A stretch of 64,000 nt of DNA. Source: an uncultured Bacteroidales bacterium (GTDB lineage Bacteria; Bacteroidota; Bacteroidia; Bacteroidales; Bacteroidaceae). The notes below the pieces were generated by a model. It searched no databases. It saw only the letters and a program-made list of their open reading frames with translations, and was not told the DNA's origin. Each line of letters opens with the position of its first letter. Position 1 is the first letter of the stretch. Both the position numbers and the translations under genes were made by a program. The stretch is from assembly GCA_902786925.1 (NCBI GenBank), contig CADAEK010000003.1:1-64000 (forward strand), in the 5' to 3' direction. This document shows positions 657 to 62,958 of this stretch, piece after piece.

Positions 657-723
657 ACCGACGTCGACGAGGTCGGTGCGGCGATGTCGACGAGGTCGGT
701 CAACCGATGTCGACGACATCGGT
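657..723. repeat. Palindrome array 1: three units at 23-bp period
   Basis: Three 21-bp units start at 657, 680 and 703, separated by 2-bp linkers, so the period is exactly 23. Each unit has 10-base arms around one central base. Arms are variants of ACCGAyGTCG. The third unit is a perfect inverted repeat (arms ACCGATGTCG and CGACATCGGT), the first has one mismatch, and the second starts GGCGATGTCG. All three share the central heptamer TCGACGA. The array matches array 2 (14012-14078) in reverse complement. Confidence 0.9.
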
Positions 724-784
724 TTAGGAGACGAAGGGCACGTGCCTGTGAAATGAAGGTATTGTGGAATCGAAAGTTTTTTCG

Positions 785-792
785 TAATTTTG
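785..792 (+). promoter_or_regulatory. -7 promoter box of the HU-like gene
   Basis: TAATTTTG matches TAnnTTTG and lies 46 bases before the HU-like start codon. Confidence 0.65.
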
Positions 793-838
793 CAGACAAA
801 ACACACGTATTACAATTGTCACTACAAAGGAAAACTCT

Positions 839-1264
839 ATGGCTATACCGTATAGAAAAAGAAAGAAAAAGATTCTTGGCCCTGATCATCAGCAACATGA
901 GGCATGGGTGATGGAGCAGTTTAGTTATGATCCGATTAAGTTCGAGGATTTTGTGAAGGAGTGCGTAATGGCACAGGGAGTGTCGGAAGCTCAAGTGAAA
1001 GGCATCGCCAGCGCTATGTCAAACCGCCTGCGAACTTATTTCACAATGGGTCACAGCGTGCAGATTGAGGGCATTGGCACTCTCAAACCCACCTTTAATG
1101 CACACAGCGCTGAAACGCCTGAAGAACTGGGAAACCAGAATGTGTTCAAGATGAAAGTGCAGTTCTATCCACACAAGGAGTTCAAAGAGGTGCTGCGCAA
1201 CATGACGGTGGTGGACATAGATGCCATCAACGAACTTCCTGGAGAAGAAGAGGTTGCCCAATAG
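839..1264 (+). CDS. HU-family-like DNA-binding protein
   Basis: The 141-residue product resembles the Bacteroidota HU-like proteins that are longer than canonical HU (about 90 residues). A basic N-terminus (residues 5-12, rich in Arg and Lys) is followed by an HU-like helical part (about residues 30-65) and a beta region with the pattern VQIEGIGTLKP at about residues 78-88, which corresponds to the conserved V-x-L-x-G-F-G-T-F element of HU. The C-terminus is acidic. It would bind DNA, perhaps as a nucleoid component. The ATG at 839 follows the promoter box by about 46 bases. It is followed on the same strand by an AraC-type regulator that has its own promoter box. The family assignment is fairly secure; the specific role is not. 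Confidence 0.75.
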   Translation: MAIPYRKRKKKILGPDHQQHEAWVMEQFSYDPIKFEDFVKECVMAQGVSEAQVKGIASAMSNRLRTYFTMGHSVQIEGIGTLKPTFNAHSAETPEELGNQNVFKMKVQFYPHKEFKEVLRNMTVVDIDAINELPGEEEVAQ

Positions 1265-1342
1265 GCGACGAGGATGCCAAGCGGAATTCTTTAGAAAGCT
1301 TAAAAATGACTGTCCGAACCATCAAGTCGGAAAAATAATTTA

Positions 1343-1350
1343 TAACTTTG
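1343..1350 (+). promoter_or_regulatory. -7 promoter box of the AraC-type gene
   Basis: TAACTTTG matches TAnnTTTG. It lies only 8 bases before ATG 1359, so the mRNA leader would be very short. It argues against any start upstream of 1343. Confidence 0.55.
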
Positions 1351-1358
1351 CAGGCGAA

Positions 1359-1772
1359 ATGCACAAGCAGGGAATTCACAAAGACCGTATTGACGCCATC
1401 CTCATCAAGGGCAAGAAGTATCGGGAGCCAGACTTTTCCGCTCAAACACTGGCGGAAATGCTGGAGGTGTCGGCGTCAAAATTGTCACGCATCATCAAAG
1501 ATGAATATGGAATGGCCTATGCTGACATAGTGCATGGCTACCGCATCCAAGATGCCAAACGCTACCTGAAGGACGCCCGAATGCTCCCCTATTCTGTTGA
1601 TGACATTGGAACGCTGGTGGGATTTAAGAATCGGCAGTCCTTTTTCGCTGCTTTCCGCAAGGCAACAGGAACCACACCGGAGCGCTATCGACGCGAAAAC
1701 GATGCGACTGAAGGCAGCACTGCCCCAACAGGTGAAGAGCCACAGGCCATCAGGAAGGGAAGTCGCACTTGA
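1359..1772 (+). CDS. Small AraC-type helix-turn-helix regulator
   Basis: The 137-residue protein is almost entirely a two-helix-turn-helix AraC/XylS DNA-binding domain. The first HTH is around residues 27-50 (SAQTLAEMLEVSASKLSRII). The second is around residues 80-105, with the signature VGFKNRQSFFAAFRKATGTTP, where GF, S-F and F-K-x-x-G-x-T-P are the family hallmarks. There is no N-terminal sensing domain, so it either binds an unknown partner or acts constitutively. An open frame reaches back to 1221 but overlaps the upstream gene and the promoter box, so ATG 1359 is preferred. The dipeptidyl peptidase gene starts 38 bases downstream and may be cotranscribed. Confidence 0.8.
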   Translation: MHKQGIHKDRIDAILIKGKKYREPDFSAQTLAEMLEVSASKLSRIIKDEYGMAYADIVHGYRIQDAKRYLKDARMLPYSVDDIGTLVGFKNRQSFFAAFRKATGTTPERYRRENDATEGSTAPTGEEPQAIRKGSRT

Positions 1773-1810
1773 GAAAAACGCAGATAAATAAACATACGAT
1801 ATCAGACAGA

Positions 1811-3841
1811 ATGAACAAGACAGTAAAAACAATGATGATTACAGCACTGATGACTGTTGGAGCAGGCACGACGAATGCTCAACAGAACAGTTCCAAAACG
1901 GCTTCGTCGGACAAATTGGAAGGAACTTTTGAGTACAGCAATGAGCGTTTTGCAGACCTGCAAATGCTACGCTACAAAGTAGAAGGGTTTGAAAACCTCT
2001 CGCTGAAACAGAAGACCTTCATCTATTATCTGCAAGAAGCAGCCCTCTATGGCCGCGACATCCTCTTCGACCAAAACGGCAAGTACAACCTGCGCATCCG
2101 CCAAATCATGGAGAATCTCTATACAAACTACAAAGGCGACCGCAACGGAAAGGACTTCAAGGCTTTCGAAGAATACCTGAAGCGCTTATGGTTCTCCAAC
2201 GGCATACACCATCACTATGGATGCGAGAAGTTTGTGCCAGGATTCAGCCAGAAATGGTTTAAAGAACAAACGAATTGCACCGATGAAATCGCTGATGTTA
2301 TCTTCAATCCAGAAACGATGAAGAAGCGCGTGAATCTTGCTGACGGCGATGACCTGGTGAAGACAAGCGCCTGCAATTACTACGAGAATGTAACCCAAGC
2401 TGAGGCGGAAGCGTTTTATGAGAAGCAGAAAGCTGAGGGCGATGCATTGCATCCTGTAATGTACGGCATGAATTCGCGCCTTGTAAAGACAAAAAACGGC
2501 GAACTCATCGAGAAAAAGTGGACCACGAGCAGCATGTATGGTGCAGCGCTGAAGAAGATTGTCGAGAACTTAAAGCTGGCGCGCCCCTATGCAGAGGATG
2601 CACAACAGCAGAAGGTTATCGACCTACTCATTTCCTACTATGAGACAGGTGATTTGAAAACCTTTGACCAGTATTCCATCGCATGGGTGAAGAACACGGA
2701 ACCACTGGTGGACTTTGTCAACGGATTTATTGAATGTTATGGCGACCCACTGGGATTGAAATGCTCTTGGGAAGGCTTCGTCAACTTCAAAGACATCGAG
2801 GCGACTAAGCGCACGGAAACCTTAAGTGCCAACGCCCAGTGGTTTGAAGACCATTCCCCTGTTGCACCTGAGTTCAAAAAGGAGAAGGTAAAGGGCATTA
2901 CTGCTAAAGTCATCAAAGCGGCTATACTGGCAGGCGACCTTTATCCATCGACTGCCATCGGCATCAATCTCCCTAACAGCAACTGGGTTCGCGCAGAACA
3001 CGGATCCAAGTCCGTCACCATCGGCAACCTTACTCATGCCTACAGCCAAGCAGCTAAGGGCAACGGCATGCTGCAAGAGTTCTCTTATGGACCCGAAGAG
3101 ATAGCGCTGATGGAAAAATATGACGATTTGACCAGCGATTTACACACGGATTTGCACGAATGTCTCGGCCATGGCAGCGGAAAGCTTCTGGAAGGCGTGG
3201 ATGCAGACAGTCTGAAGGCATACGGCAGCACGATTGAAGAGGCACGCGCCGACTTGTTTGCACTTTACTATCTGGCCGATCCTAAGCTGGTGGAGCTTGG
3301 TCTTGTGCCCGACGGCGAGGCTTATAAGGCGGCTTACATCGGTGAGATGCAGAACGCTCTGCTGACCCAATTGGTGCGCATCAATTTAGGAAATGACATT
3401 GAAGAGGCACATATGCGTAACCGCGCACTCATCGCACGATGGGCATACGAGCACGGCAAAGCTGACAACGTCATGGAATTTGTGAAACGTGACGGCAAGA
3501 CCTACTTGAAAATCAACGACTACCAGAAACTCAGAGGCCTATTCGGAGAACTACTGGCGGAGATTCAGCGTGTGAAGTCGACAGGCGATTTCAAGGGGGC
3601 ACAAGCACTCGTTGAGACATACGGAGTGAAGATTGACCCCGAACTCCACAAGGAGATTCTCGACCGTTACGCAAAACTCAACATTGCTCCATACAAGGGC
3701 TTTATCAATCCTGTCTATACCGCCGTACGTGATGCACAAGGCAATATCACAGACGTAACCATCTCTTACACGGAAGGATATGCCGAGCAAATGCTGCGCT
3801 ATAGCAAGGACTATTCTACTCTTCCACTCATCAATGAATAA
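1811..3841 (+). CDS. Dipeptidyl peptidase III (M49 zinc metallopeptidase)
   Basis: The 676-residue protein belongs to peptidase family M49, which releases dipeptides from peptide N-termini. The M49-specific zinc motif HExxxH appears as HECLGHGSG near residue 448, and the second motif as EEARAD near residue 475. Together they supply the two His and one Glu zinc ligands and the catalytic Glu. Length matches bacterial DPP III. The N-terminus (MNKTVKTMMITALMTVGAG, then an Ala-Gln cleavage region) looks like a signal peptide, so it is probably exported. ATG 1811 is chosen because it places the signal peptide at the start; the frame itself opens at 1769. The last 8 bases overlap the next gene, which suggests translational coupling. 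Confidence 0.93.
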   Translation: MNKTVKTMMITALMTVGAGTTNAQQNSSKTASSDKLEGTFEYSNERFADLQMLRYKVEGFENLSLKQKTFIYYLQEAALYGRDILFDQNGKYNLRIRQIMENLYTNYKGDRNGKDFKAFEEYLKRLWFSNGIHHHYGCEKFVPGFSQKWFKEQTNCTDEIADVIFNPETMKKRVNLADGDDLVKTSACNYYENVTQAEAEAFYEKQKAEGDALHPVMYGMNSRLVKTKNGELIEKKWTTSSMYGAALKKIVENLKLARPYAEDAQQQKVIDLLISYYETGDLKTFDQYSIAWVKNTEPLVDFVNGFIECYGDPLGLKCSWEGFVNFKDIEATKRTETLSANAQWFEDHSPVAPEFKKEKVKGITAKVIKAAILAGDLYPSTAIGINLPNSNWVRAEHGSKSVTIGNLTHAYSQAAKGNGMLQEFSYGPEEIALMEKYDDLTSDLHTDLHECLGHGSGKLLEGVDADSLKAYGSTIEEARADLFALYYLADPKLVELGLVPDGEAYKAAYIGEMQNALLTQLVRINLGNDIEEAHMRNRALIARWAYEHGKADNVMEFVKRDGKTYLKINDYQKLRGLFGELLAEIQRVKSTGDFKGAQALVETYGVKIDPELHKEILDRYAKLNIAPYKGFINPVYTAVRDAQGNITDVTISYTEGYAEQMLRYSKDYSTLPLINE

Positions 3842-4439
3842 CTTCATTAACGTCATCAAAAAGGAACTCCACGCCCAAATGAACGGGGTAGCATCGGCGC
3901 ATGCAAGGCAAACGGCCGACTACCGTATCAATTGGGGCGTGGAGCTGCCACGACTGGTCAATATGGCCGATGAAATCGCTCGTGGCGAATGGAATGAGGC
4001 CAACGAAACAGTCTCATCAATGCGCTCTTTGGCACAAGCGCTGTGGAACGACAGCACCAGAGAGTGCAAGATTCTGGCCTGCATGCTCATGCCTGCCGAA
4101 GAGATGTCCGAGGAAGTGTGCGACATTTGGGCCGAAAGCATTCAGACAGAAGAAATCGCTACCATGTTCTGCATGTATCTCACTCAGCGCTTGCCATACG
4201 CCAGCACAAAAGCCTTTGAATGGATAGCACATGAGGAGGTGATGCTGCAAACTTGCGGGTTCTTGACCCTCTGCCACCTCATCCGGAAATACAACCTGAG
4301 CGAAGAGGCTGAGGCGGAATTCTTGGACCAGGCGGGGGCTGCATTGGACAACAAGTATGCAACAAAGGCCCTGCAGATTTATGCATCAAAGAGCGCAGAG
4401 AACAGACGAAAAGCCAAAAAAGTGGCTGATTATTTGTAG
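3834..4439 (+). CDS. DNA alkylation repair (AlkD-like) HEAT-repeat protein
   Basis: The 201-residue all-helical protein resembles the ALK/AlkD family of HEAT-like repeat DNA glycosylases and their non-catalytic relatives. Features include W-x-S-x-x-x-E-x-K-like helices (LWNDSTRECKILACMLM at about residues 66-82) and later helices with WIAHEEVMLQTCGF. These proteins act on or bind alkylated DNA in the cytoplasm. The ATG at 3834 overlaps the end of the dipeptidyl peptidase gene by 8 bases. I cannot confirm catalytic residues, so it could be a non-enzymatic HEAT protein. Confidence 0.7.
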   Translation: MNNFINVIKKELHAQMNGVASAHARQTADYRINWGVELPRLVNMADEIARGEWNEANETVSSMRSLAQALWNDSTRECKILACMLMPAEEMSEEVCDIWAESIQTEEIATMFCMYLTQRLPYASTKAFEWIAHEEVMLQTCGFLTLCHLIRKYNLSEEAEAEFLDQAGAALDNKYATKALQIYASKSAENRRKAKKVADYL

Positions 4440-4456
4440 CGCCCACAGAAAAGCAG

Positions 4457-4464
4457 TAAATTTG
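4457..4464 (+). promoter_or_regulatory. -7 promoter box of the Fur-family gene
   Basis: TAAATTTG matches TAnnTTTG. It ends where an alternative GTG start (4464) would lie, which is why the ATG at 4488 is chosen for the gene. Confidence 0.55.
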
Positions 4465-4487
4465 TGCCCATATTGTGCTCAGGCCGT

Positions 4488-5063
4488 ATGAAAGAGGCAA
4501 TTAACGACGGTTCAAAGAAGAAGGATAATGCACGCGACATCCTCGCACGCTACATGTCAGAACAAGGAATGCGCAAAACTCCTGAACGATTTGCCATTCT
4601 GGATGTTGTGATGCGGATGAAGGGGCATCACAGTGCAGATGAGATTCTCACCATGATGCCACAAGACTTTCCCGTCAGCAGAGGCACCATCTACAGCACA
4701 TTGGCGCTGCTGGTGGAATGTGGCTTAGCCTATAACCATCAGACTGAAGGCGCCACCCTGTATGAATGCGCATTCGGCAAGCAGCCCCATCACCACTACA
4801 TCTGCACAGGATGCCACAAGATATGGGACCTGCATGATTCCACCATCGAGCAGGCGGTTTCGAAAATGAAAACGCCACGCTTCAAGAAGTTGCGATGCAG
4901 CACCTACATTTACGGCCTCTGCAACATCTGCCAGGCTAAGCTGGCGCGTGTCAAGAAGAAAATGGAGAAGCAGAAGGAAGCCAGCATGACACGTGAAGAA
5001 AGACGCTTTGCCCGCATCAACGAAGAGTTAGCGAAAGCCGCTGAATGGTTCAAAGAAAATTAA
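4488..5063 (+). CDS. Fur-family metal-dependent transcriptional regulator
   Basis: The 191-residue protein has a winged-helix domain (about residues 18-90: RKTPERFAILDVVM, then HHSADEI and SRGTIYSTLALLVECGL) and a C-terminal metal/dimerisation domain with HHHY, C-T-G-C and C-N-I-C. The two CxxC pairs would form the structural zinc site and the His cluster a regulatory metal site. That suits a Fur, Zur or PerR type repressor; the ligand cannot be read from sequence. A charged Lys/Glu-rich tail of about 40 residues follows the second CxxC, longer than in typical Fur. purA starts 21 bases downstream, so the two may be cotranscribed. Confidence 0.88.
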   Translation: MKEAINDGSKKKDNARDILARYMSEQGMRKTPERFAILDVVMRMKGHHSADEILTMMPQDFPVSRGTIYSTLALLVECGLAYNHQTEGATLYECAFGKQPHHHYICTGCHKIWDLHDSTIEQAVSKMKTPRFKKLRCSTYIYGLCNICQAKLARVKKKMEKQKEASMTREERRFARINEELAKAAEWFKEN

Positions 5064-5084
5064 ACCAATAAACTAAATAGAACA

Positions 5085-6353
5085 ATGAAAGTAGATGTAC
5101 TGTTAGGTCTTCAATGGGGAGACGAAGGTAAAGGTAAGGTAGTGGATGTATTGACACCTCGCTATGACGTTGTAGCCCGCTTCCAGGGAGGTCCTAACGC
5201 AGGACACACGCTCGAGTTCGAAGGAGAGAAGTATGTTCTTCGTTCCATTCCATCGGGCATTTTCCAAGGCGAGAAGGTTAATATCATTGGTAACGGCGTG
5301 GTGCTGGCTCCAGACCTCTTCATGGATGAAGCCAAAGACCTTGAGAAGAGCGGTCACAACCTCAAGAACCGCCTCCATATCTCAAAGAAAGCGCACCTCA
5401 TCATGCCAACACACCGTCTGCTCGACGCTGCATACGAAGCAGCTAAAGGCAAGAACAAAGTGGGCACTACAGGCAAAGGCATCGGCCCCACTTACACCGA
5501 CAAAACAAGCCGCAACGGTTTGCGCGTAGGTGATATCCTCGACAACTTCGAAGAGAAGTACGCAGCACACAAAGCACGTCACGAGGAAATCCTCAAGAGC
5601 CTCAACTATACCGACTACGATATCACAGAGGTGGAAAAGAAGTGGATGGAGGGCATCGAATACATCAAGCAGTTCCAGCTTGTTGACTCAGAGCACGAAA
5701 TCAACAACCTCCTGAAGCAAGGCAAATCAGTCCTCTGCGAAGGCGCACAAGGCACAATGCTTGATATCGACTTCGGCTCTTACCCCTTCGTTACATCATC
5801 TAACACTATCTGTGCTGGTGCTTGCATCGGCTTGGGCGTAGGTCCTAACAAGATAGGCGATGTATTCGGCATCATCAAGGCTTACTGCACACGCGTTGGT
5901 GCTGGCCCATTCCCTACAGAGCTGTTTGATGAGACCGGTGCCAAGATTCGTGCTATTGGCCATGAGTACGGCGCTGTGACAGGACGTGAGCGTCGTTGTG
6001 GCTGGATTGACCTTGTAGCACTGAAGTACGCCATCATGGTGAGCGGCGTTACCAAGCTTATCATGATGAAGAGCGACGTGCTTGACGACTTCGAGACTAT
6101 CAAGGCTTGTACTGCCTACAAGCTGAAGGATGGTAGCGTCATCGACTACTTCCCATACGACATCAGCGACGGTCTGATCGAGCCTGTTTACACAGAGCTG
6201 CCCGGATGGAAGACAGACCTCACCAAGATTACTTCAGAGTCCGAGTTCCCGAAGGCTTTCGCAGACTATATTGCCTTCCTCGAGAAAGAGCTCGAAACTC
6301 CTATCACTATCGTCAGCGTTGGTCCAGACCGTGAACAAACGATAGAAAGATAA
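5085..6353 (+). CDS. purA: Adenylosuccinate synthetase
   Basis: The 422-residue enzyme forms adenylosuccinate from IMP, aspartate and GTP, the first committed step to AMP. The N-terminal phosphate-binding loop GLQWGDEGKGKVVD and the adjacent GGPNAGHT are diagnostic. TTGKGIGPTY, the GAQGTMLDIDFGSYPFVTSS region and GRERRCGWIDLVALKYA are further family motifs. Length matches the family. The ATG has an AT-rich Bacteroidota-style leader. A TPR regulator gene begins 11 bases after the stop, so readthrough transcription is likely although the functions look unrelated. Confidence 0.97.
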   Translation: MKVDVLLGLQWGDEGKGKVVDVLTPRYDVVARFQGGPNAGHTLEFEGEKYVLRSIPSGIFQGEKVNIIGNGVVLAPDLFMDEAKDLEKSGHNLKNRLHISKKAHLIMPTHRLLDAAYEAAKGKNKVGTTGKGIGPTYTDKTSRNGLRVGDILDNFEEKYAAHKARHEEILKSLNYTDYDITEVEKKWMEGIEYIKQFQLVDSEHEINNLLKQGKSVLCEGAQGTMLDIDFGSYPFVTSSNTICAGACIGLGVGPNKIGDVFGIIKAYCTRVGAGPFPTELFDETGAKIRAIGHEYGAVTGRERRCGWIDLVALKYAIMVSGVTKLIMMKSDVLDDFETIKACTAYKLKDGSVIDYFPYDISDGLIEPVYTELPGWKTDLTKITSESEFPKAFADYIAFLEKELETPITIVSVGPDREQTIER

Positions 6354-6364
6354 CATATTCCCGA

Positions 6365-7543: not shown

Positions 7544-7666
7544 CGCACCGATTTACTGCCGATTAGGAAAAGCCTGTAAAATCCTTGTGAACTGTTCATA
7601 AGGGTCTGAAGCGAAATGTGAATTATTTGTAAACTCCATTATTTAGCGCCGATGGAGCGAAAAGTC

Positions 7667-7674
7667 TATCTTTG
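7667..7674 (+). promoter_or_regulatory. -7 promoter box of the DUF4419 gene
   Basis: TATCTTTG matches TAnnTTTG, 35 bases before ATG 7710. It overlaps the GTG at 7674 that would otherwise extend the gene. Confidence 0.6.
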
Positions 7675-14011: not shown

Positions 14012-14078
14012 ACCGATGTCGTCGACATCGCTTCACCGACCTCGTCGACATCGGTCGACCGACGTCGACGAGGTCGGT
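14012..14078. repeat. Palindrome array 2: three units at 23-bp period
   Basis: Three 21-bp palindromic units start at 14012, 14035 and 14058, again exactly 23 bp apart. Arms are variants of ACCGAyGTCG or ACCGACCTCG. The central heptamers are TCGTCGA, TCGTCGA and TCGACGA. Read in reverse complement, unit order and sequence match array 1 with only a few mismatches. The left flank in direct orientation also resembles that of array 1 (CACCTCCAAACCG here, CACCTCAAAACCG there). Confidence 0.9.
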
Positions 14079-26622: not shown

Positions 26623-26723
26623 TGTAACACTGCGGTAGTGTTACATATGTAACACACCCTGTGTTACAAGTGTAACATCGAGTGTGTGACAAATGTTACA
26701 GAGGGTATGTTACAACTGTTACA
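26623..26723. repeat. Palindrome array 3: TGTNACA heptamers on a 23-bp grid
   Basis: Nine copies of the heptamer TGTTACA or its complement TGTAACA (one variant TGTGACA) occur in 101 bases. From 26648 the layout is strict: heptamer, 7-base centre, heptamer, 2-base linker, with unit starts at 26648, 26671, 26694 and 26717, a 23-bp period. Centres are CACCCTG, TCGAGTG and GAGGGTA. The first unit (26623-26645) is a perfect 10-base inverted repeat with a longer centre. The second unit is a perfect palindrome apart from its three-base core. Confidence 0.9.
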
Positions 26724-26732
26724 CGAGAAGCG

Positions 26733-39187: not shown

Positions 39188-39286
39188 ATTCAATTAAGTG
39201 GGAAGTGATTCTTTTTACTTCACTTTTAACACCCTTTTAATCTCCCCCCTAAGCAGGAAGATTTTGGGGCTTTCCCCCTCCAAAAA

Positions 39287-39351
39287 CGGTGTGAGTCACA
39301 CCGAGGGTGGCGGTCTGAGTCACACCGACCATACCGGTGTGACTCAGACCG
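39287..39351. repeat. Palindrome array 4: three 17-bp units at 24-bp period
   Basis: Three palindromes of 8-base arms around one base start at 39287, 39311 and 39335, exactly 24 bp apart: CGGTGTGAGTCACACCG, CGGTCTGAGTCACACCG and CGGTGTGACTCAGACCG. They mix two half-sites, CGGTGTGA and CGGTCTGA. The 7-base spacers are AGGGTGG and ACCATAC. The left flank CCCCCTCCAAAAA resembles that of arrays 1 and 2. It lies between convergent genes. Confidence 0.9.
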
Positions 39352-39413
39352 CCAAAGTGGTGCAGGAAGCACCTCTAAAGGAGGGGTGAGTGGAGGAGCG
39401 CTGATGCGCACCG

Positions 39414-41595: not shown

Positions 41596-41695
41596 TAAAA
41601 AGCGAAAAATCTAAGTTACCCACTATTCGGATGGCTTCTCATTCGTAATGGTAATTCAGATTTTTCGCTTTTCACTCTTCACTTTTCACTTACAA
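41596..41695. repeat. Hairpin element between dapB and lepB
   Basis: AAAAGCGAAAAATCT (41598-41612) is complementary to 41658-41672. The 45-base loop holds a second stem (TTACC/GGTAA) and the motif ATTCGGATGG. A TTTCACTCTTCACTTTTCAC run follows. Sequence and position resemble the element at 43196-43290, and it starts right after the dapB stop. Confidence 0.75.
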
Positions 41696-41707: not shown

Positions 41708-43195
41708 ATGGGATTCGACTATAAGAACTTTAAGAAAACACGTTCTGGAGAGAACAACAAGCCCGAATGGGCGGGTTGGAAATGGGTGAAGTTTGGCGTG
41801 GCCACGGCCTGCTACCTGGCTTTCCTCGTATGGGTGAAGTCATGGTGGGGACTGGTGGTGGTGCCTTTCATCTATGACGTGTACATCAGCAAGAAAATTA
41901 AATGGACTTGGTGGAAGGAGCTGGAGAGCGATGTGGCACGCACCATCATGAGCTGGCTGGACGCCATCGTGTTTGCGCTGGTGGCGGTGTATTTTGTCAA
42001 TAACTTCTTCTTCCAGAACTACCAGATTCCTTCTTCATCGCTGGAAAAGACGCTGATGACGGGCGACTTCCTGCTGGTGAGCAAGATGAGCTACGGCCCA
42101 CGCATTCCACAGACGCCACTGACCATGCCGCTGACGCAGCACACGCTGCCACTGGTGAACACGAAGTCGTATCTCGAATGGCCTCAGTGGGAGTATCGCC
42201 GCGTGAAGGGATTTGGCAAGGTGGAACTGGGCGACATCGTGGTGTTCAACTACCCTGCCGGCGACACAGTGGCTGTGGGACACAATGGCGACTATTATGA
42301 CCTGTGCTACCAGCTGGGCAGCAAAGCTGTGATGGACCAAGGATATGAGGTGCCGCTGATGCAGAACCTCCCCCGTGAGGAGCAGCAGAAGCAGTTTGAC
42401 CAGCTGTATGCCATCGGCAAGCAGGTGGTGGCCTCGCAGACGAATATCTACGGCAGCGTGACGAGCCGTCCGGCCGACCGCCGCGAGAACTATGTGAAGC
42501 GCTGTGTGGGCCTGCCTGGACAGACGCTGCAAATCAAGGACAAAATCATCTATGTGGACGGCAAGAAGCAGGAGACTCCTACGTTCGCACAGTTTAACTA
42601 TAAGGTATATACGCGCAACTACCAGGTGCTGACCAACGAGATGTGTGAGGAGCTGAACATCAGCGACGAGGACCGTGACAAGATTCTGGACCACGACATG
42701 GGCATTCCACTCACGCACATGGCGGCGGAGGCGCTGCGGGCCAACAAGGACTTCTGCGACAGCATCGTGGAGGTGAAGGACGGCTACTGGGGCAACCTCT
42801 ACCCCATCAACCACCAGTATGGCTGGACACGCGACAACTACGGCCCTATCTGGATTCCTGCCAAGGGCAAGAGCGTGAAGCTGACACTGGACAATCTGGC
42901 CATCTACGAGCGCCCTATCCGCGTGTATGAGAAGAATGAACTGGAGGTGAAGGACGGACGCATCTACATCAATGGCAAGCAGACGAACGAATATACGTTC
43001 AAGATGGACTACTACTGGATGATGGGCGACAACCGCCACAACTCGGCAGACAGCCGCTACTGGGGCTTCGTGCCTGAGGACCACGTGGTGGGCAAGCCGC
43101 TGTTCATCTGGCTCTCCCTCATCACCGACCGCTACGGACAGTCGCACGGCGTGCGCTGGAACCGCTTGTTCACATGGGTAGATAATATTAAGTAA
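41708..43195 (+). CDS. lepB: Signal peptidase I
   Basis: The 495-residue protein is a membrane-anchored S26 signal peptidase that removes signal peptides on the outer face of the inner membrane. Two N-terminal hydrophobic segments (about residues 22-50 and 75-103) precede the catalytic box IPSSSLEKTLMTGDFLLVSK (Ser near residue 109). The Lys box is YVKRCVGLPGQTLQIKD (Lys near 264). Box E, MMGDNRHNSADSRYWG, lies near residue 440. A large insert between the last two is typical of Bacteroidota. ATG 41708 gives a normal N-terminus; the frame extends 20 codons into the hairpin element. Confidence 0.93.
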   Translation: MGFDYKNFKKTRSGENNKPEWAGWKWVKFGVATACYLAFLVWVKSWWGLVVVPFIYDVYISKKIKWTWWKELESDVARTIMSWLDAIVFALVAVYFVNNFFFQNYQIPSSSLEKTLMTGDFLLVSKMSYGPRIPQTPLTMPLTQHTLPLVNTKSYLEWPQWEYRRVKGFGKVELGDIVVFNYPAGDTVAVGHNGDYYDLCYQLGSKAVMDQGYEVPLMQNLPREEQQKQFDQLYAIGKQVVASQTNIYGSVTSRPADRRENYVKRCVGLPGQTLQIKDKIIYVDGKKQETPTFAQFNYKVYTRNYQVLTNEMCEELNISDEDRDKILDHDMGIPLTHMAAEALRANKDFCDSIVEVKDGYWGNLYPINHQYGWTRDNYGPIWIPAKGKSVKLTLDNLAIYERPIRVYEKNELEVKDGRIYINGKQTNEYTFKMDYYWMMGDNRHNSADSRYWGFVPEDHVVGKPLFIWLSLITDRYGQSHGVRWNRLFTWVDNIK

Positions 43196-43290
43196 AAAGT
43201 GAAGAGTGAAGAGTGAAAAGTGAAGAATCTATTTTACCTGCCATCCGGATGGAGGATACTTAGATTCTTCACTTTTCACTCTTCACTCTC
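43196..43290. repeat. Perfect 29-bp inverted repeat between lepB and wbqC-like gene
   Basis: Arms 43203-43231 and 43261-43289 are perfect complements (GAAGAGTGAAAAGTGAAGAA core), around a 29-base loop that contains the 12-base palindrome CCATCCGGATGG. It begins after the lepB stop and ends 11 bases before the next start. TTACCTGCCATCCGGATGG in the loop aligns with the loop of the 41596-41695 element. Confidence 0.9.
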
Positions 43291-56984: not shown

Positions 56985-56999
56985 ACGCCTACTCTATCG

Positions 57000-58202
57000 T
57001 TAACGCATGACGGCCTCCATCTGATTAATGATATCAACCGCCACCTCTGGTTTCGACTTTAGAGGAAACTCCGTCTTGTCATCTGCTGTAATAATCGTGA
57101 TTTTGTTGGTTTCAGTCTGAAAACCTGCTCCAGCATCACGCAAACTATTCAACACAATAAAATCGAAGTTTTTCTTTTTCAGTTTTGATTGAGCGTTTGT
57201 CTCCTCATCATTGGTTTCAAGAGCAAAGCCAACAAGAGTCTGACTCTCCTTTTTCAACTGCCCTAACGAAGCAGCAATATCTGGATTTGGTTTCAAATGC
57301 AGAATCATCTCATCACCCGTGCGCTTAATCTTCTGAGAAGCCACATCACATGGAGTAAAGTCTGCTACAGCTGCACATAAAATGGCGGAATCCATTGAGG
57401 GATACAACCGCAGACACTCTTCATACATCTCACGAGCACTTTCCACGTCTATACGTTGTATGTTCGGATGCTTTGCCTGCATCGTTGCAGATACAGGTCC
57501 ACAAACCAATGCAACTTCTGCTCCCCTAGCAGCACATTCCTCAGCAAGGGCAAACCCCATCTTTCCAGAGGAATAGTTTCCAATAAAGCGTACAGGGTCT
57601 ATCTTCTCATAAGTCGGACCAGCAGTAATGAGCACTTTCTTGCCTTTCAGGCTTTCCTGCTGAGCAAAGAAACGCTCCAGCGCTGCCACGATGTTCTCCG
57701 GCTCTTCCATGCGTCCCTTCCCTTCCAGTTTGGATGCCAAAAAACCCGTACCAGGTTCAATGATATGATTGCCATATGACTGCAGAGTCTTCAGATTCTG
57801 CTGCGTAGAAGGATGAGCATACATATCCAAATCCATGGCAGGAGCCACAAAGACGGGCGCTTTCATAGACAGATAAATCGTGATGAGCATGTTATCGGCA
57901 ATGCCGTTGGCCATCTTGCCAATGGTTGAAGCCGTGGCAGGTGCAATCAACATGGCATCAGCCCATAGTCCAAGGTCCACATGGGAATGCCAAGTGCCAT
58001 CTCGCTGAGAGAAAAACTCGCTGATGACAGGTTTGCTAGTCAATGCCGACAGGGTGATAGGCGTGATAAACTCTTTACCTGCAGGAGTAATGACCACTTG
58101 CACCTCAGCCCCCTTTTTAATCAGTTGGCGGATAATTAGGCATGACTTATAAGCAGCAATACTGCCAGTGATGCCGAGCACTATTTTCTTACCTTTCAAC
58201 AT
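57000..58202 (-). CDS. coaBC: Bifunctional phosphopantothenoylcysteine synthetase/decarboxylase
   Basis: The 400-residue enzyme makes 4-phosphopantetheine for coenzyme A. The N-terminal flavin decarboxylase (about residues 1-185) has KIVLGITGSIAAYKS, the FMN-binding His in GTWHSHVDLGLWADAMLIAP and APAMDLDMYAHPSTQ, the counterpart of P-x-M-N-x-x-M-W. The C-terminal synthetase starts VLITAGPTYEKIDPVRFIGN, with AAVADFTPCDVASQKIKRTG and GFALETNDE. Both halves are complete. Confidence 0.96.
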   Translation of the reverse strand: MLKGKKIVLGITGSIAAYKSCLIIRQLIKKGAEVQVVITPAGKEFITPITLSALTSKPVISEFFSQRDGTWHSHVDLGLWADAMLIAPATASTIGKMANGIADNMLITIYLSMKAPVFVAPAMDLDMYAHPSTQQNLKTLQSYGNHIIEPGTGFLASKLEGKGRMEEPENIVAALERFFAQQESLKGKKVLITAGPTYEKIDPVRFIGNYSSGKMGFALAEECAARGAEVALVCGPVSATMQAKHPNIQRIDVESAREMYEECLRLYPSMDSAILCAAVADFTPCDVASQKIKRTGDEMILHLKPNPDIAASLGQLKKESQTLVGFALETNDEETNAQSKLKKKNFDFIVLNSLRDAGAGFQTETNKITIITADDKTEFPLKSKPEVAVDIINQMEAVMR

Positions 58203-58204
58203 AG

Positions 58205-58981
58205 TTACTTCTGCGACTTAGACGCCAAATATAATTTGGTCAAGACCTGCTTGGTGTTTTGGGCAAAGTCTCCCTGCATCATCCATGCATAATAGCTGGG
58301 GTCAAGACGAAGGAGCACATCCACTACAGGCTTGCCTTTGTGCTTTCCGAAATTAAAGACTTCCACACCCTTCTCATTGCGAATAATACGGCCTGCAAAA
58401 TCCACGTTATTGTTCATCTTGCTATACTCGGCCAAATAATTCACGTCATTCTTCAAATCAGCAGGGTAACGATCCAGTTGTGCCTCCAGCACTTCCAATG
58501 TGGCACGTGTATCGGCAAGGGCCGAATGAGCATTTTCCAAGTCTTTCTCACAATAATACTTATAGGCCGCCACCAATGTGCGACGCTCCAACTTGTGATA
58601 GATATTCTGTACGTCAATGCACTTACGCTTCGATACATCAAAGTCCATGCCCTGGCGCAGGAACTCCTCACACAGCAGGGGGATGTCAAACTTATTCGAG
58701 TTGAAACCTGCCAAATCACAGCCCTGAAAGGTATTGAAAAGCTCCTGTGCGACGTCCTTGAATGTTGGACAGTCAACAACATCTGCATCGTAGATTCCAT
58801 GCACCTCAGACGCTCTTGGCGGAATGGGCATGCCCGGATTGAGACGCATAGACTTTGATTCCTCATTGCCATTAGGAAAAACTTTGATGTAGCAAAGTTC
58901 CACAATGCGGTCCTTTGCTACATCAACGCCCGTCGTCTCCAAATCGAAGAATATGATTGGGTTTTGTAAGTTCAGTTTCAT
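58205..58981 (-). CDS. DnaQ-like 3'-5' exonuclease
   Basis: The 258-residue protein has a DEDDh exonuclease fold: IIFFDLETTGVDVAKDRIVE (Asp, Glu), GFNSNKFDIPLL (second Asp) and AHSALADTRATLEVL (His, last Asp). The C-terminal 70 residues contain VFNFGKHKGKPVVDVL, a module often attached to such nucleases. It may act as proofreading subunit or in repair. It lies 2 bases after dnaN and 2 bases before coaBC. Confidence 0.92.
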   Translation of the reverse strand: MKLNLQNPIIFFDLETTGVDVAKDRIVELCYIKVFPNGNEESKSMRLNPGMPIPPRASEVHGIYDADVVDCPTFKDVAQELFNTFQGCDLAGFNSNKFDIPLLCEEFLRQGMDFDVSKRKCIDVQNIYHKLERRTLVAAYKYYCEKDLENAHSALADTRATLEVLEAQLDRYPADLKNDVNYLAEYSKMNNNVDFAGRIIRNEKGVEVFNFGKHKGKPVVDVLLRLDPSYYAWMMQGDFAQNTKQVLTKLYLASKSQK

Positions 58982-58983
58982 TA

Positions 58984-60108
58984 TCAGTCTTTCAACATCA
59001 TAGGCATCAGCAGCATGATAAGGTCTTCATTCTCATCCTGCTCCGCAGGTGTGATGACACCAGCTCTACTTGGGTCTGCAAGCTCAAGTACAACGTCACT
59101 GCTGGTGATGCTGTTCAAAACGTCGAGCAAGAATGGGCCATTGAAACCTATGCTCATGGCCATACCATCATACTCGCACATGATGTGTTCTTCTGCCGAT
59201 GTAGAGAAATCCAAATCCTGAGCCGAGACAGTCAGCGTACCACGATCCACATGAAGCTTAATCAGCGCACTGCTCTGGCTGGCAAACACGCTGACGCGAC
59301 GCAATGCACTGATAAAGGCGAGGCGGTCTGCCGTTACGCGGAAAGGATTGTCGGTAGGAATCACAGAATTGTAATTGGGGTAACGTCCCTCTATCAGACG
59401 GCAGCTAATTACATAGTCCGTCATCTGCAGCTCTGCATTGCGGTCATCAAAACGCACCGCCACTTCGCCTTCAGCCTTAGGGAGCACTGTCTTCAGCAAC
59501 AAAGCGGGCTTCTTAGGCAGGATAAAGGCCGAGTTCTCATCCGAGCGAACAGAAAGAACGCGGTTACGCACCAATTTGTGTCCATCGCTGGCCACGAATG
59601 TGATGTTCTCTGTAGTGATGTCGAAATAGACACCATTCATCTGAGGACGGAGTTCATCATCAGCAGCTGCAAAAAGACAACGAGTAATGCCGTCCAGCAT
59701 CACCTGTGCATCAATCGCGATGTGGCGAGAAGACTCGCTGATGCCTGTGGGCTCTGGGAATTCATATCCGTTCTGCCCAATCAGGTTATAACGACCGTTT
59801 TGATAGTTTATCTCAATGGCGAATGTGCTAGGGTCCACATTGAATGAAATGGGCTGTTCGGATATTTCTTTTATCGAACTAATCAGCTGTTTAGCGCCAA
59901 TGGCAAACTTTCCTTCTCCATCTGCATCCATCACCTCGAGGGTAGTCACCATCGTGGTTTCGCTGTCGGATGCGGTCATCTTCAGCGTACTGCCAGAAAG
60001 CTCAAACAAGATGCAGTCGAGGATAGGCAAAGCGTTCTTTGAGCTCTGTACTCGGCTTATTGTCTGCAGGCGATTGCTGAGGCTTGTACTTGATACATTG
60101 AATCTCAT
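58984..60108 (-). CDS. dnaN: DNA polymerase III beta subunit (sliding clamp)
   Basis: The 374-residue protein starts MRFNVSSTSLSNRLQTISRV and then SSKNALPILDCILFELSGST, typical of DnaN. Later signatures are EISEQPISFNV, SLLKTVLPKAEGEV-like, and the C-terminal FNGPFLLDVL with the final LLMPMMLKD. It tethers replicative polymerase to DNA. It leads a tightly packed minus-strand run of six genes with replication, repair and CoA functions. No dnaA is adjacent, so this is probably not the origin. Confidence 0.97.
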   Translation of the reverse strand: MRFNVSSTSLSNRLQTISRVQSSKNALPILDCILFELSGSTLKMTASDSETTMVTTLEVMDADGEGKFAIGAKQLISSIKEISEQPISFNVDPSTFAIEINYQNGRYNLIGQNGYEFPEPTGISESSRHIAIDAQVMLDGITRCLFAAADDELRPQMNGVYFDITTENITFVASDGHKLVRNRVLSVRSDENSAFILPKKPALLLKTVLPKAEGEVAVRFDDRNAELQMTDYVISCRLIEGRYPNYNSVIPTDNPFRVTADRLAFISALRRVSVFASQSSALIKLHVDRGTLTVSAQDLDFSTSAEEHIMCEYDGMAMSIGFNGPFLLDVLNSITSSDVVLELADPSRAGVITPAEQDENEDLIMLLMPMMLKD

Positions 60109-60131
60109 TGTCGAAAATATTTATTTGCACA

Positions 60132-60139
60132 CAAAGTTA
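60132..60139 (-). promoter_or_regulatory. -7 promoter box of the dnaN operon
   Basis: The minus strand reads TAACTTTG, matching TAnnTTTG, 23 bases before the dnaN start. Confidence 0.7.
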
Positions 60140-60171
60140 GAGAGAAGTTTTGAGAATACAAAAAAAAAGCG

Positions 60172-60179
60172 TACTTTTG
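60172..60179 (+). promoter_or_regulatory. -7 promoter box of the DUF3127 gene
   Basis: TACTTTTG matches TAnnTTTG, 40 bases before the ATG, divergent from the dnaN promoter. Confidence 0.65.
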
Positions 60180-60219
60180 TGGCTGATTTTAATGAATGTA
60201 TAACAATAAATAACAAAAT

Positions 60220-60633
60220 ATGGAATTTACAGGAAGAATCATCGAGGCCCTGGAGCCAAGAAGCGGTATGTCAGCCAGAACTGGCAACCCATGGAAAATG
60301 CAAGATTTCGTGATTGAGGAGACAGTGGGCCAGTTCCCCAAGAGAATGGTTTTTAACGTCTTCGGTGAAGATAACTTGAACCGTTTCAACATACAGAAAG
60401 GCCAAGAATTGACCGTATCTTTCGATATCAACGCTCGCGAATACAACGGACGTTGGTACAATGACATACGTGCATGGAACGTCGTTGCTGCTCAGCCTGC
60501 AGCCGCACCCGCCGCTCAGCCAGCAGCTGCCGCAACAGCCGCTGCTCCATTCCCTCCGGCACAGCCAGCTGCGCCTGCACAGGCAAACGCATTTGAGGCT
60601 GCTCCAGACGAGTCAAGCGACCTGCCTTTCTAA
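60220..60633 (+). CDS. DUF3127 OB-fold protein resembling single-stranded DNA-binding protein
   Basis: The 137-residue protein has a compact N-terminal beta domain (about residues 1-90: MEFTGRIIEALEPRSGMSAR, then FVIEETVGQFPKRMVFNVFG and LTVSFDINAREYNGRWYNDI), matching DUF3127, with an SSB-like OB-fold look. A Pro/Ala/Gln-rich linker (about 92-128) leads to the acidic tip DESSDLPF, close to the SSB C-terminal peptide D-D-D-I-P-F that recruits repair and replication partners. It sits divergently from dnaN. It may bind ssDNA or a partner protein; no activity is known to me. A bidirectional terminator follows. Confidence 0.85.
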   Translation: MEFTGRIIEALEPRSGMSARTGNPWKMQDFVIEETVGQFPKRMVFNVFGEDNLNRFNIQKGQELTVSFDINAREYNGRWYNDIRAWNVVAAQPAAAPAAQPAAAATAAAPFPPAQPAAPAQANAFEAAPDESSDLPF

Positions 60634-60654
60634 TTAAGGCGACAGTATAACAAA

Positions 60655-60698
60655 CAAAAGCCCCCGAACATTCTTTCACAGATGTTCGGGGGCTTTTG
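60655..60698. terminator. Bidirectional terminator between DUF3127 and DUF2264 genes
   Basis: A perfect 17-bp stem (CAAAAGCCCCCGAACAT and its complement) with a 10-base loop; the A-rich and T-rich ends serve both strands. Confidence 0.9.
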
Positions 60699-60716
60699 CT
60701 ATTACTACGGATGAGC

Positions 60717-62060
60717 TTATTCCCAATAGAGAATCTCCCTGTTAATGTTCCACTTATGGTCCTTGGGGAAGTCATCTCCTTCCCATGCCTTCTTGCTGGT
60801 CCACTTCTCGGCAGGGTCAGTCCAGAAAGGATCTGTAGCAGGGAGTCCAAGTGGCATGAATGCCAATGAGGTCATGTAGAGCGAACCATTGTTGGTATAC
60901 CAGTCTGCAACATTAGGATGTGAACCCACAAAGCCGATGGTCAGGAAACCGCCTGAATTGTAGTTGTGACTCTTCTGCTTGGCGTTCTTGAGAGGGTTCT
61001 CTACTTGACCATAGAACATACGGTTAGCCACGGCCGTAATGGCGGCACGCACCTGGCCGTTGTGCAGCTCCTGTGGCAGCTGTTTTCGCCATGCCAACTG
61101 TGCTAATGGCTGAAGCACTGCCATACGGTAAGGGATGCTTCGTCCGACCACTGGGAACGTGCCTTCAGGCGAGATAAAGCGTTCCAAGATGACTGACCAC
61201 TTCTGCATGCGCTTACGCACTTCCTGCATGCGGTTTTTAGCAGTGTTGCGCTTTCCGTCGGTAGCACGAATAAGGTAGCTATTGCCTCCCTGACGGGCAC
61301 TAATCATCTCCAGACACTCCAGATACATAGGCTGGATAACAAACGAGTTGTAGTAGTCGAAGGCGAAAGATGGCCCATCACTGTAGATACCGTCACCAAT
61401 GTACCACTCCTCCACTTTGCTCATGGCGGTCTTGATACGGAAGGCATCATAGTCGGCACCTACATACATCAGGAAGCTCTCTTCCATGCCTACAAAAAGG
61501 AACCAGTTGGTGTAAGGTGGGTCATAGCGACGCAAGCCCTTGATTTCCTTGATATAAAGCTCTTTGGTTTCTTTTGGAAGTGGCACCCAAAGAGAGTCAT
61601 AACCACGATAGAGACCTTCTACCACATAGGCTCCGTCCACCAAGGTTTGTCCACCATTTTCCCATCCGAGACGGTCTGGCGACTTTGGATCGACAGCGTT
61701 GATGATAGCCTTGCGTGTCCACTCACGCAACTGCTTGCGTTTTGCAGATTCGGGCGTGTCGTCGTCGGGAAGATTAAGCCATGGGGCCAAACCTGCCAAC
61801 AAGCGACCAAAGGCTTCCATATAGGCAACTTTCTTGTCGCGCTTATCCCATGTAGGAGAAAGCTCCAGATTGGTGCAGCCACCTGCGGTGTCCATCACCT
61901 GCTGCAGTTTTCCTTCTGCCATGTTCCGCATCACGGGTTCTGCCATCTGATACATGATGTCCACCCATACTTCGCGGTCTGTCTTTTGTTTGTTCTTCGG
62001 CGCGGCAAACGTGCTCATGCAGGCACACACCAAAGCCATAGTCAAAGCAAATTTCTTCAT
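60717..62060 (-). CDS. Exported DUF2264 protein
   Basis: The 447-residue product has a signal peptide (MKKFALTMALVCACMSTFAA) and a DUF2264 fold, an alpha-barrel like that of polysaccharide-related enzymes. Typical segments are MEAFGRLLAGLAPWL, DPKSPDRLGWENGGQ, NNWFLFVGMEE-like NWFLFVGMEESFLM, WYIGDGIYSDGPSFAFDYYN and VVGRSIPYRM. Related proteins occur in glycan-utilisation loci, but no activity can be assigned here. It may be cotranscribed with the lipoprotein gene 63 bases upstream. Confidence 0.88.
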   Translation of the reverse strand: MKKFALTMALVCACMSTFAAPKNKQKTDREVWVDIMYQMAEPVMRNMAEGKLQQVMDTAGGCTNLELSPTWDKRDKKVAYMEAFGRLLAGLAPWLNLPDDDTPESAKRKQLREWTRKAIINAVDPKSPDRLGWENGGQTLVDGAYVVEGLYRGYDSLWVPLPKETKELYIKEIKGLRRYDPPYTNWFLFVGMEESFLMYVGADYDAFRIKTAMSKVEEWYIGDGIYSDGPSFAFDYYNSFVIQPMYLECLEMISARQGGNSYLIRATDGKRNTAKNRMQEVRKRMQKWSVILERFISPEGTFPVVGRSIPYRMAVLQPLAQLAWRKQLPQELHNGQVRAAITAVANRMFYGQVENPLKNAKQKSHNYNSGGFLTIGFVGSHPNVADWYTNNGSLYMTSLAFMPLGLPATDPFWTDPAEKWTSKKAWEGDDFPKDHKWNINREILYWE

Positions 62061-62123
62061 AATAGGTTATTCATTAGAGGTTTTTCTTCTATTTCGATGT
62101 CATATCACCACATACGGGCTCGG

Positions 62124-62714
62124 TCAGTTATAACGTTCAAACTCTGTCATAAACTCACCGTTCATCAGCACAAGGCTATCCGATGTCAACTGCATGATTT
62201 CGAACGTGTCAACCACGGCAGGAGCCTCATCTCCGATTCGCTTGGGCACATGGAGCAGCAACTGTCCAGCCCGCACCTCCCAAGAGTCATAATCAATGGT
62301 CATATTATAGGTTGCTGCCCGGCCGCCTGAGTTCAGCTCTAGGCTCTGCTCGCGACCATCTGCTCCACGCTGTGACCACAAGTGCTGCAACGAAGTGAGG
62401 TTGACTGCTACGGAGGCAAAAATATCTTCATCGGACACGTTGTAAACCACCTGCACTTCATCACCCACGCGAACACCACCCATCACAGCCTGCCCTGGCA
62501 CACGGATATAGACGGTGTCGCCATCATCACCAAGGAACTCCATCACATTCATGCTTGAGCCCTCGCCAATGGTGCCATGTGCCTCAACGATGCTTGGTAT
62601 CTCATCCAACACACGTATTTCCACAGGCGGTTTCTGTGGTTCCTTTTTCTTCTCTTCACACGAAAAGAAGGCAAGCGCAACAAATGCCATTAAAGCAATC
62701 GAAATCTTATTCAT
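62124..62714 (-). CDS. Lipoprotein, possibly lipocalin-like
   Basis: The 196-residue lipoprotein has Cys near residue 19 (LAFFSCEEKKKEP). The first part (about residues 45-105) reads like a small beta domain (IGEGSSMNVMEFLGDDGDTV, VMGGVRVGDEVQVVYNV). The second part (LTSLQHLWSQRGADGREQSL, then WEVRAGQLLLHVPKR and DTFEIMQLTSDSLVLMN) matches the strand order of Bacteroidota lipocalin-like lipoproteins. Function is unknown. Confidence 0.65.
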   Translation of the reverse strand: MNKISIALMAFVALAFFSCEEKKKEPQKPPVEIRVLDEIPSIVEAHGTIGEGSSMNVMEFLGDDGDTVYIRVPGQAVMGGVRVGDEVQVVYNVSDEDIFASVAVNLTSLQHLWSQRGADGREQSLELNSGGRAATYNMTIDYDSWEVRAGQLLLHVPKRIGDEAPAVVDTFEIMQLTSDSLVLMNGEFMTEFERYN

Positions 62715-62739
62715 GGTAAACTTCTATGACTTGATGTTG

Positions 62740-62747
62740 CAAAGATA
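62740..62747 (-). promoter_or_regulatory. -7 promoter box of the lipoprotein gene
   Basis: The minus strand reads TATCTTTG, matching TAnnTTTG, 25 bases before the start. Confidence 0.6.
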
Positions 62748-62876
62748 GCACATATTTTCTCGGCAACGACACTTTTTCCGAAAAGTTTTTCGTGGGATGC
62801 TCTACTTTCAGCTTTTACATTCAATTCGCCTATTACTTCGCTCCTACGGACGAAACAGAATAGCACCCCTACGCCG

Positions 62877-62958
62877 ACACCCTGCGCGTAATTAATTGCG
62901 CACCCTGCACAATAAAATATGCGCACCCTGCGCGTTAATACACGTGCAGGGTGCGCAC
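62877..62958. repeat. Palindrome array 5: CACCCTG heptamers on a 23-bp grid
   Basis: CACCCTG occurs at 62878, 62901 and 62924, and its complement CAGGGTG at 62947, all exactly 23 bp apart. The 16-base segments between them are partly palindromic and AT-rich in the middle with GCG-type ends. Units extend to imperfect palindromes such as GCGCA-CCC-TGCGC. It lies between the lipoprotein gene and ddh. A repeat GGGCCTA (twice, 9-bp spacing) follows at about 62965-62981. Confidence 0.85.

Follow-up and report, generated by a model that had tools for sequence, protein, structure and literature searches.

Scattered along the chromosome of an uncultured Bacteroidales bacterium are short arrays of DNA palindromes in which the spacing of the units is fixed while their sequence varies. 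They were noticed within a 64,000-nucleotide stretch (positions 1 to 64,000 of contig CADAEK010000003.1, assembly GCA_902786925.1; termed here the window), and they occur genome-wide, far beyond chance, in several sequence families, each array usually having three units set at one of three pitches (21, 23 or 24 bp). At orthologous sites within genes, species share the geometry of three units at 23 bp while having, in every one of the units, a different palindrome; palindrome arms hardly change between sister species; and arrays of different families keep their distance from one another. The reading favoured here, tentatively and as somewhat short of probable, is that the arrays are binding sites for paralogous dimeric proteins, that they mark the chromosome at intervals, and that they have spread as mobile elements.

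Geometry and number of the arrays

The window holds arrays at five places, which belong to four families, termed A, B, C and D (Table 1). Their places and pitch are as the earlier note, made from the window's sequence, had described them: palindrome centres (motif centres for family D) fall on a 23-bp grid, or on a 24-bp grid at 39287, and the grid of the array at 62877 persists across an inverted unit. That the five palindromes are mutually unrelated, as that note also had it, does not hold: the arrays at 657 and 14012 have in common the 21-bp unit ACCGANNTCGWCGANNTCGGT at a pitch of 23 bp and form one family. Because half-sites within families A, B and C also face each other across the spacers, dyads recur there every 11.5 or 12 bp, and an array amounts to six or more half-sites in alternating orientation. 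The family D array is weaker: its palindrome score peaks at only two of the four motif centres (62904 and 62927), and it lies below the threshold of the scan described next, being known from direct reading.

Table 1. Arrays and associated end motifs within the window
Feature	Position	Strand	Composition	Centres
Family B array	657..723	.	three 21-bp units (657-677, 680-700, 703-723), 23-bp grid	667, 690, 713 (23 bp apart)
Family B array	14012..14078	.	three 21-bp units (14012-14032, 14035-14055, 14058-14078), 23-bp grid	14022, 14045, 14068 (23 bp apart)
Family C array (TGTTACA-type half-sites)	26624..26726	.	4-5 units of 23 bp; outer limits by eye	26634, then dyads each 11.5 bp from 26646.5 to 26715.5
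Family A element, left end motif	39269..39286	+	CTTCC....CCWC-A-rich consensus; weak at the 39287 copy	
Family A array	39287..39351	.	three 17-bp palindromes CGGTSTGASTCASACCG, 7-bp spacers, 24-bp grid	39295, 39319, 39343 (pitch 24 bp)
Family A element, right end motif	39352..39369	-	reverse complement CTTCCTGCACCACTTTGG	
Family D array (GCGCACCCTGCGC type)	62877..62956	.	23-bp grid; ACCCTGC at 62879, 62902, 62925, inverted GCAGGGT at 62946; outer limits by eye	62881, 62904, 62927, inverted 62950 (derived from motifs)

Palindrome triplets were sought, by summed palindrome score and at periods of 16 to 40 bp, within 464,000 bases of the bacterium's own genome (the window plus 20 further stretches). 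At a score of 23 or more there are 6 triplets at period 23, 12 at period 24 and 1 at the remaining periods (at 17), and none in a first-order Markov shuffle of the 464 kb; at 21 or more there are 7 at period 23 and 13 at period 24, versus 2 and 0 after shuffling. (One AT-rich locus in the scan's listing, L014, looks spurious.) Pattern searches of the own genome, which is a draft and 92% complete (those of relatives are drafts as well), find at least 72 two-unit windows of family A with up to 3 mismatches and 36 arrays, 32 of which have zero mismatches in every unit; family B has 21 windows and 11 arrays, and rarer families exist beside these two. The earlier note had named two outcomes that would count against its pattern, namely equally many such runs in shuffled DNA and no cases in the species beyond the five; neither is what is seen.

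Exceptions to the usual three units exist: L118 and L031 have four, an array in G007 (contig C67) has six, family C and the 21-bp class have four or more, and one locus of the sister species RUG418 has two only.

Different palindromes at one orthologous site

The arrays are not confined to intergenic DNA, as had been supposed: three family B arrays of the own genome lie in frame within genes, that is, within what we take, from motifs read by eye, to be genes for glycerate kinase and for a GSCFA-like protein, and within a third gene. At the glycerate kinase site 30 loci were fetched, 10 of which are not readable; a 3 × 23 triplet occupies the same codon position in 13 of the 20 readable loci and is lacking in 7. 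Its centre is WCG in 8 loci and CCCC in 2 (genomes G012 and G007), with single cases of GTGCCCCAC in G011, GTGGGGCAC in G017 and CACCCGACGGGTG in G035; within each triplet, the three units agree with one another. The GSCFA site is filled in 10 of 30 loci and empty in 20, the triplets being WCG in 5, GTCGGGGAC in 2 (G044 and G008), GTGGGGCAC in G030 and GTACCCSAGGGGTAC in G007 and G016. For the third gene a triplet is firm in 6 of 30 loci (WCG in G000, G032 and G015; CCCC in G012; CCACGWCGTGG in G016; GTGGGGCAC in G011) and doubtful in G008, 11 loci are without one, and 12 are unreadable.

A palindrome scan of the 30 filled loci of the three genes finds period 23 best or tied-best in 26; the exceptions are the glycerate kinase locus of G017 and the GSCFA locus of G007, where another period outscores it, and the two G008 loci (one containing unread bases), where the scan fails, so that the G008 triplets are known by reading alone. 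Single genomes can have different families at different sites: G030 has GTGGGGCAC in the GSCFA-like gene and WCG in the glycerate kinase gene, and G007 has the GTACCC type at one site and CCCC at another. A period of 23 bp, not being divisible by three, sets each unit in a different reading frame, so that what is conserved is the DNA and not the peptide. Independent re-insertion at the same coding spot is, strictly speaking, conceivable instead of an in-place change of palindrome. An intergenic change of family is suggested by anchoring genes (L143, family A, versus L065 of the own genome, family B); because the intergenic DNA there gives no alignment, only coding sites are counted as swaps.

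Where other species have the triplet, the G027 and G030 orthologues of the L068 gene (L276 and L277) have heptamer-like repeats in frame instead (CAACTCT/CAACTGT), a second repeat class in the same loop. Heptamer tandem repeats (TTTTCAC, AGTGAAG and TCTTCAC) occur in the window at 41662-41691, 43190-43226 and 43266-43289, in or near gene ends.

Conservation of arms and half-site grammar

Constraint was assessed by comparing the own genome with RUG418 (probably G032), flanks being 84-98% identical. RUG418 arrays were fetched, among the matches listed, with an exact two-unit pattern, each unit having at most 2 mismatches; of 30 loci, L146 was dropped (it lacks a third unit on the grid), L139 and L142 are without a partner, and L118 stands outside the counts. 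This pairs 27 arrays, one of which differs in unit number. Over the other 26 pairs, differences number 1 in 1092 arm positions and 1 in 156 at unit positions 5/13, compared with 8 of 78 for centres and 25 of 364 for spacers; in the flanks, changes affect 16 of 260 among the first five bases, 115 of 676 at bases 6-18 (a count made without gaps and thus inflated) and 20 of 104 at bases 19-20. Even in the unit not required by the fetch pattern (still with 2 mismatches at most, by selection) arm changes number 1 of 364. Selection on the half-sites would be the simplest account of this conservation. Conversion of whole arrays is disfavoured because it would not spare the arms alone while spacers and centres change.

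Degenerate positions vary by single half-site rather than as pairs, which argues against pairing, as hairpin or cruciform, as their function. Units with identical halves are in fact rarer than chance: 47 of 104 in family A of the own genome (57.9 expected), 126 of 264 in family A of relatives (147.3 expected), and 3 of 70 in family B (19.7 expected). Family A arrays, moreover, have a grammar of half-types: exactly two C-type halves are present in 30 of 32 own arrays, where 10.5 are expected, and in 65 of the 84 arrays of relatives, where 27.7 are; C-type halves never face each other over a spacer (0 of 64 own, 0 of 168 in relatives); and at 56 of 64 spacers the two flanks are unlike (31.5 expected). 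These counts are not independent, inasmuch as the relatives include the sister species and the own genome, G032 and G010 share ancestry. Hairpin avoidance was considered as the cause of the grammar and rejected, folding energies of real arrays being not weaker than those of rearranged ones (0.39).

Spacing along the chromosome

Arrays are spaced more evenly than random placement would give. With families pooled (C, D and 21-bp arrays being included only where scanned), the own genome has 35 within-contig gaps, none of them below 5 kb, versus a random mean of 7.5 and 0 of 20,000 simulations; the coefficient of variation (CV) of the gaps is 0.47 versus 0.98 at random. For families A and B together, none of 28 gaps is below 5 kb (P=0.0015). 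The avoidance extends across families: of 16 non-A arrays, none lies within 5 kb of an A array, where 3.97 are expected (P=0.008), and none of 32 pieces that extend about 2 kb in both directions from an array or a lone unit contains a second array. Among the matches listed, G010 has 20 gaps with none below 5 kb (P=0.005), and G017 has 14 gaps, the smallest of 10.0 kb (P=0.00015), with P=0.02 for gaps below 5 kb and P=0.05 for the CV; the lengths of some contigs are guessed in both tests. Shared ancestry of the own genome, G032 and G010 applies here too, so that the spacing tests are not independent. Weak unnamed scan hits were not counted as arrays, and neither were single-unit matches: family B at C1:93016 and at C1:107642 (0.9 kb away from an A array), family D at C1:38026 (with an A array at a distance of 0.7 kb), and four more.

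Own contig C3 and G010:C55 are partly orthologous (L161 versus L013) and both array-dense, and other contigs are sparse; array density may follow chromosome domains. Genes adjacent to arrays form a mixed set, as judged by eye.

Distribution among relatives

Among 45 genomes of the genus, family A occurs in 9, family B in a wide sense in 13, and a further family, F (GTGSSSCAC), in 10, with 43 matches in G017 and 35 in G011, in both of which it dominates, and 5 in the own genome. One of the latter, at C1:95717 (L018 15717), is a triplet with one mismatch whose nearest A array is 7.8 kb away. In most GTGSSSCAC arrays of G017 the outer units are turned towards each other, with CCCC in the first and GGGG in the last, so that by eye the array as a whole has a dyad. 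A search of the wider taxonomic family finds family A in 10 of 249 genomes, all belonging to the own genus, and in none of 234 genomes (at least 90% complete) from 21 other genera. The named hits, at least 90, are metagenome-assembled genomes of Prevotellaceae, Bacteroidaceae or Bacteroidales, and their source, as far as names tell, is rumen or goat reticulum.

The earlier note had proposed a search of related genomes for palindromic runs, and this indeed turns up other palindromes on a 21-, 23- or 24-bp pitch. Samples from congeners contain a CGTACCC type in G035, a CAATTTGTACG type in G007, a GTGCCCCAC type in G017 and a CGGACTGCTCCAGTCCG type in G015, and G016 has family A palindromes at a 23-bp pitch; pitch and palindrome can therefore combine differently. 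In two congener samples, triplets scoring 22 or more number 4+2 at period 21, 6+4 at 23, 1+5 at 24 and 4+1 at 32-38, versus 1+0 in shuffles. Arrays at a 21-bp pitch occur in G016, G012 and the own genome, and an AT-rich class of 21-bp palindromes, with about 4 units per array, is represented at own C2:78463 (L024 18463), G012:C11 30657 and 50518, and G016 L308-L310. Some families look like neighbours of one another.

Ten genomes from 10 other genera (326 kb sampled) yielded no triplet at 23 or 24 and 1 at 21, and G027, G030, G036 and G041 (275 kb) no convincing 23/24-bp triplet; however, a pattern search finds family B in G027, G030 and G041 despite the empty scan, which is therefore insensitive at low copy number, so that absence from a sample, that of the other genera included, is weak evidence.

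Arrays as candidate chromosome markers

Taken together, the constraint, the independence of half-sites, the position within genes, the interchangeability and the spacing speak for markers bound by protein and brought in as mobile elements. In the mechanism that we infer, an array would be a landing site for multiple dimers: usually three palindromic operators, and hence six alternating half-sites with dyads every 11.5-12 bp, on which a putative dimeric DNA-binding protein would sit side by side. Each family, whether A, B, C, D or another, would serve its own paralogue, or its own version of a protein that has changed over time, these proteins differing in base specificity and having a similar oligomer pitch. 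Rather than regulating single genes, the arrays would act as interchangeable markers at least 5-10 kb apart, like dispersed chromosome-organising or nucleoid-occlusion sites. New copies may come as small mobile elements of about 100 bp with inverted ends; selection on the half-sites would then maintain a placed copy, whose palindrome could be replaced with no change of place or pitch.

Both interpretations offered by the earlier note thus find partial support. Related dimeric proteins with different specificities would fit the half-site variation and the near-zero divergence of the arms, and mobile elements fit the dispersal, the presence and absence between species and the shared inverted end motif, though not their being intergenic only. 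Arrays in genes, palindrome change at one site, avoidance between families and the three pitches lay beyond its view.

Several points weigh against the marker reading. No binding protein was identified for the arrays; interchangeable families would require several proteins for one job; and simple dimer binding does not predict the grammar of two C-type halves. Spacing within single families is weak: for family A alone in the own genome P=0.03-0.04, and for family B alone 3 gaps give no signal (P 0.43-0.93). For G010, among the matches listed, P is 0.07 for the CV, 0.07-0.08 across families and 0.15 for family A alone below 5 kb. The five own windows of family F stand outside the spacing test, and the one that is placed (C1:95.7 kb) lies 7.8 kb from an A array. 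Finally, orthologous copies that are absent from one species, and spacer sets that by eye appear genome-specific, look like mobile DNA.

Alternative explanations

This last point leads to a rather unlikely alternative, namely that the arrays are a superfamily of small selfish elements, resembling miniature inverted-repeat transposable elements (MITEs) or Rickettsia palindromic elements (RPEs): a putative transposase would bind the palindromes as dimers, target immunity would produce the spacing, and a change of transposase would produce a change of family. Family A ends indeed have a degenerate consensus, CTTCC....CCWC and an A-run, inverted at the two ends, whose core, CC[AT]C, occupies a fixed position in 46 of 72 ends, compared with 2 and 3 of 72 for a pair of control windows. 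Arrays also come and go: comparison of syntenic loci, another proposal of the earlier note, finds an A array at the same place for 3 of 5 relative arrays anchored on own contigs and none for 2, in the reverse direction the own array is absent from the relative in 1 of 1, and the third gene has an empty site in G010. Insertion into genes in frame is likewise as in RPEs (PMC10969869). Selfish propagation, however, gives no reason for arms at 0.1% change while flanks moved far more. It also leaves unexplained why families avoid each other, whereas target immunity is normally specific to one transposase. No target-site duplication was seen by eye at one empty/filled pair (G010 versus G012). The RAYT-type transposase domain Y1_Tnp (PF01797; RAYT, REP-associated tyrosine transposase) was found neither in the own genome nor in the drafts of G007, G011, G012, G017, G032, G035 and G043; hits fall below the cut-off in G010, G027 and G030, yet exceed it in the array-bearing G015, G016 and G031. 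Target-immunity selfish elements would thus explain dispersal and spacing, but not constraint and cross-family avoidance. Viral contigs include 12 with a single family A match and no array, and none matching the family B pattern, on which ground a viral origin was rejected; nor did the 39287 array match phage and plasmid collections. Stem pairing between the left and right end modules was also considered and discarded, the modules varying independently (by eye).

A role as hairpins in RNA or as cruciforms, whether to terminate transcription in both directions or to stabilise transcripts (with an A-run ahead and a T-run behind), is improbable. AAAA...TTTT flanks are common, pairing potential is strong, family A leans towards convergent gaps (12 of 24 classed, versus a background of 25 of 109; 11 copies in open reading frames (ORFs) set aside), and the folding energies given above do not demonstrate hairpin avoidance as such. 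Against this, copies occur within ORFs and between divergent genes, degenerate positions avoid pairing, the T-run is absent from many copies (by eye), Rfam has no family at any window array (it gives two tRNAs only in the window), and the spacing is left unexplained.

Operators of ordinary regulators, such as a CRP- or TetR-like regulon, would have dimeric half-sites and repeated operators; they are disfavoured, and quite improbable, because about 50 regularly spaced arrays lie by genes that seem to have nothing in common, whatever the gene orientation, and also inside genes. Target-immunity beacons are barely plausible, even though they would account jointly for cross-family spacing, turnover and constraint. 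On this view the host would maintain arrays that mimic the multi-site ends of its resident Mu/Tn7-like transposons and so shield the chromosome, with families tracking the current transposons; no transposon with array palindromes at its ends was seen in the viral, phage and plasmid collections searched. Mu/Tn7-type ends have several sites of about 22 bp each, and copies exclude each other over kilobases; the arrays differ in that their units are palindromes, no cargo or transposase is seen, and exclusion crosses families.

Relation to known systems

The arrays are filed here within dispersed palindromic repeats, apart from repetitive extragenic palindromes (REPs), CGTC-tagged REPs and RPEs, for each of which a tested defining feature fails. 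As described in one source (PMC3733652), REPs are short dispersed palindromes, mostly extragenic and sometimes grouped, with several families per genome and some copies in genes; different REPs are reported there at about the same recB site in two Xanthomonas species; and CGTC REPs, with a CGTC tag, 8-9-bp stem, 4-5-bp loop and CCA tail, occur in Bacteroidetes too and have no known transposase. The arrays resemble REPs, and bacterial interspersed mosaic elements (BIMEs), in being dispersed short palindromes of several families per genome, some within genes, but differ in their fixed pitch, usual three units, chromosome spacing and palindrome change at constant pitch; RAYTs, moreover, were not found in most array-rich genomes. 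A reading of the 36 family A arrays of the own genome, flanks included, found neither an unpaired GTAG at the stem foot nor head-to-head dimers. The CGTC tag is not seen, by eye, in family A or the GTACCC type; family B and the G011 type have CGTC within the arms, not as an unpaired tag (by eye). Filing as RAYT/REP was rejected on the lack of Y1_Tnp in the own genome, although three array-bearing genomes have a hit.

RPEs are long single palindromes, whereas the arrays are 3 × 21 bp on a grid, mostly intergenic and kept apart; the two are distinguished by description, RPE sequences being uncompared. Common to both is an in-frame palindrome in unrelated genes (three genes here); RPEs are palindromic, about 150 bp long and of multiple families (PMC10969869). 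CRISPR differs, the arrays having 7-bp or 2-bp spacers, usually three units and about 50 loci; cas genes were not searched. MITEs resemble the arrays in having terminal inverted repeats, which here are degenerate. SlmA and Noc each have single sites, one protein and one consensus, whereas the arrays are multi-unit, belong to several sequence families and have no known cognate protein; both are dispersed, the arrays as candidate protein-bound sites. In one source (PMC4117426), SlmA-binding sites (SBS) and Noc sites are dispersed chromosomal sites, commoner near the origin, for TetR- or ParB-type proteins, SlmA forming a dimer of dimers.

Implications

Dispersed palindromic repeats usually are filed as selfish or as RNA hairpins. 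No description of such arrays was found in the accessible portions of the open-access literature, and, to our knowledge, chromosome-marker arrays would, if the reading is true, be new for this branch of the Bacteroidota. A bolder formulation, possible though doubtful, is that of a chromosome ruler defined by geometry: triplets interchangeable throughout the genus, whose pitch, place and distance would be inherited while their letters are rewritten alongside fast-evolving DNA-binding proteins, as are centromere or PRDM9 sites in eukaryotes. Because a single orthologous site can be followed across a dozen species and several palindrome families, its spacing being intact throughout, the co-evolution of marker and reader would be directly testable.

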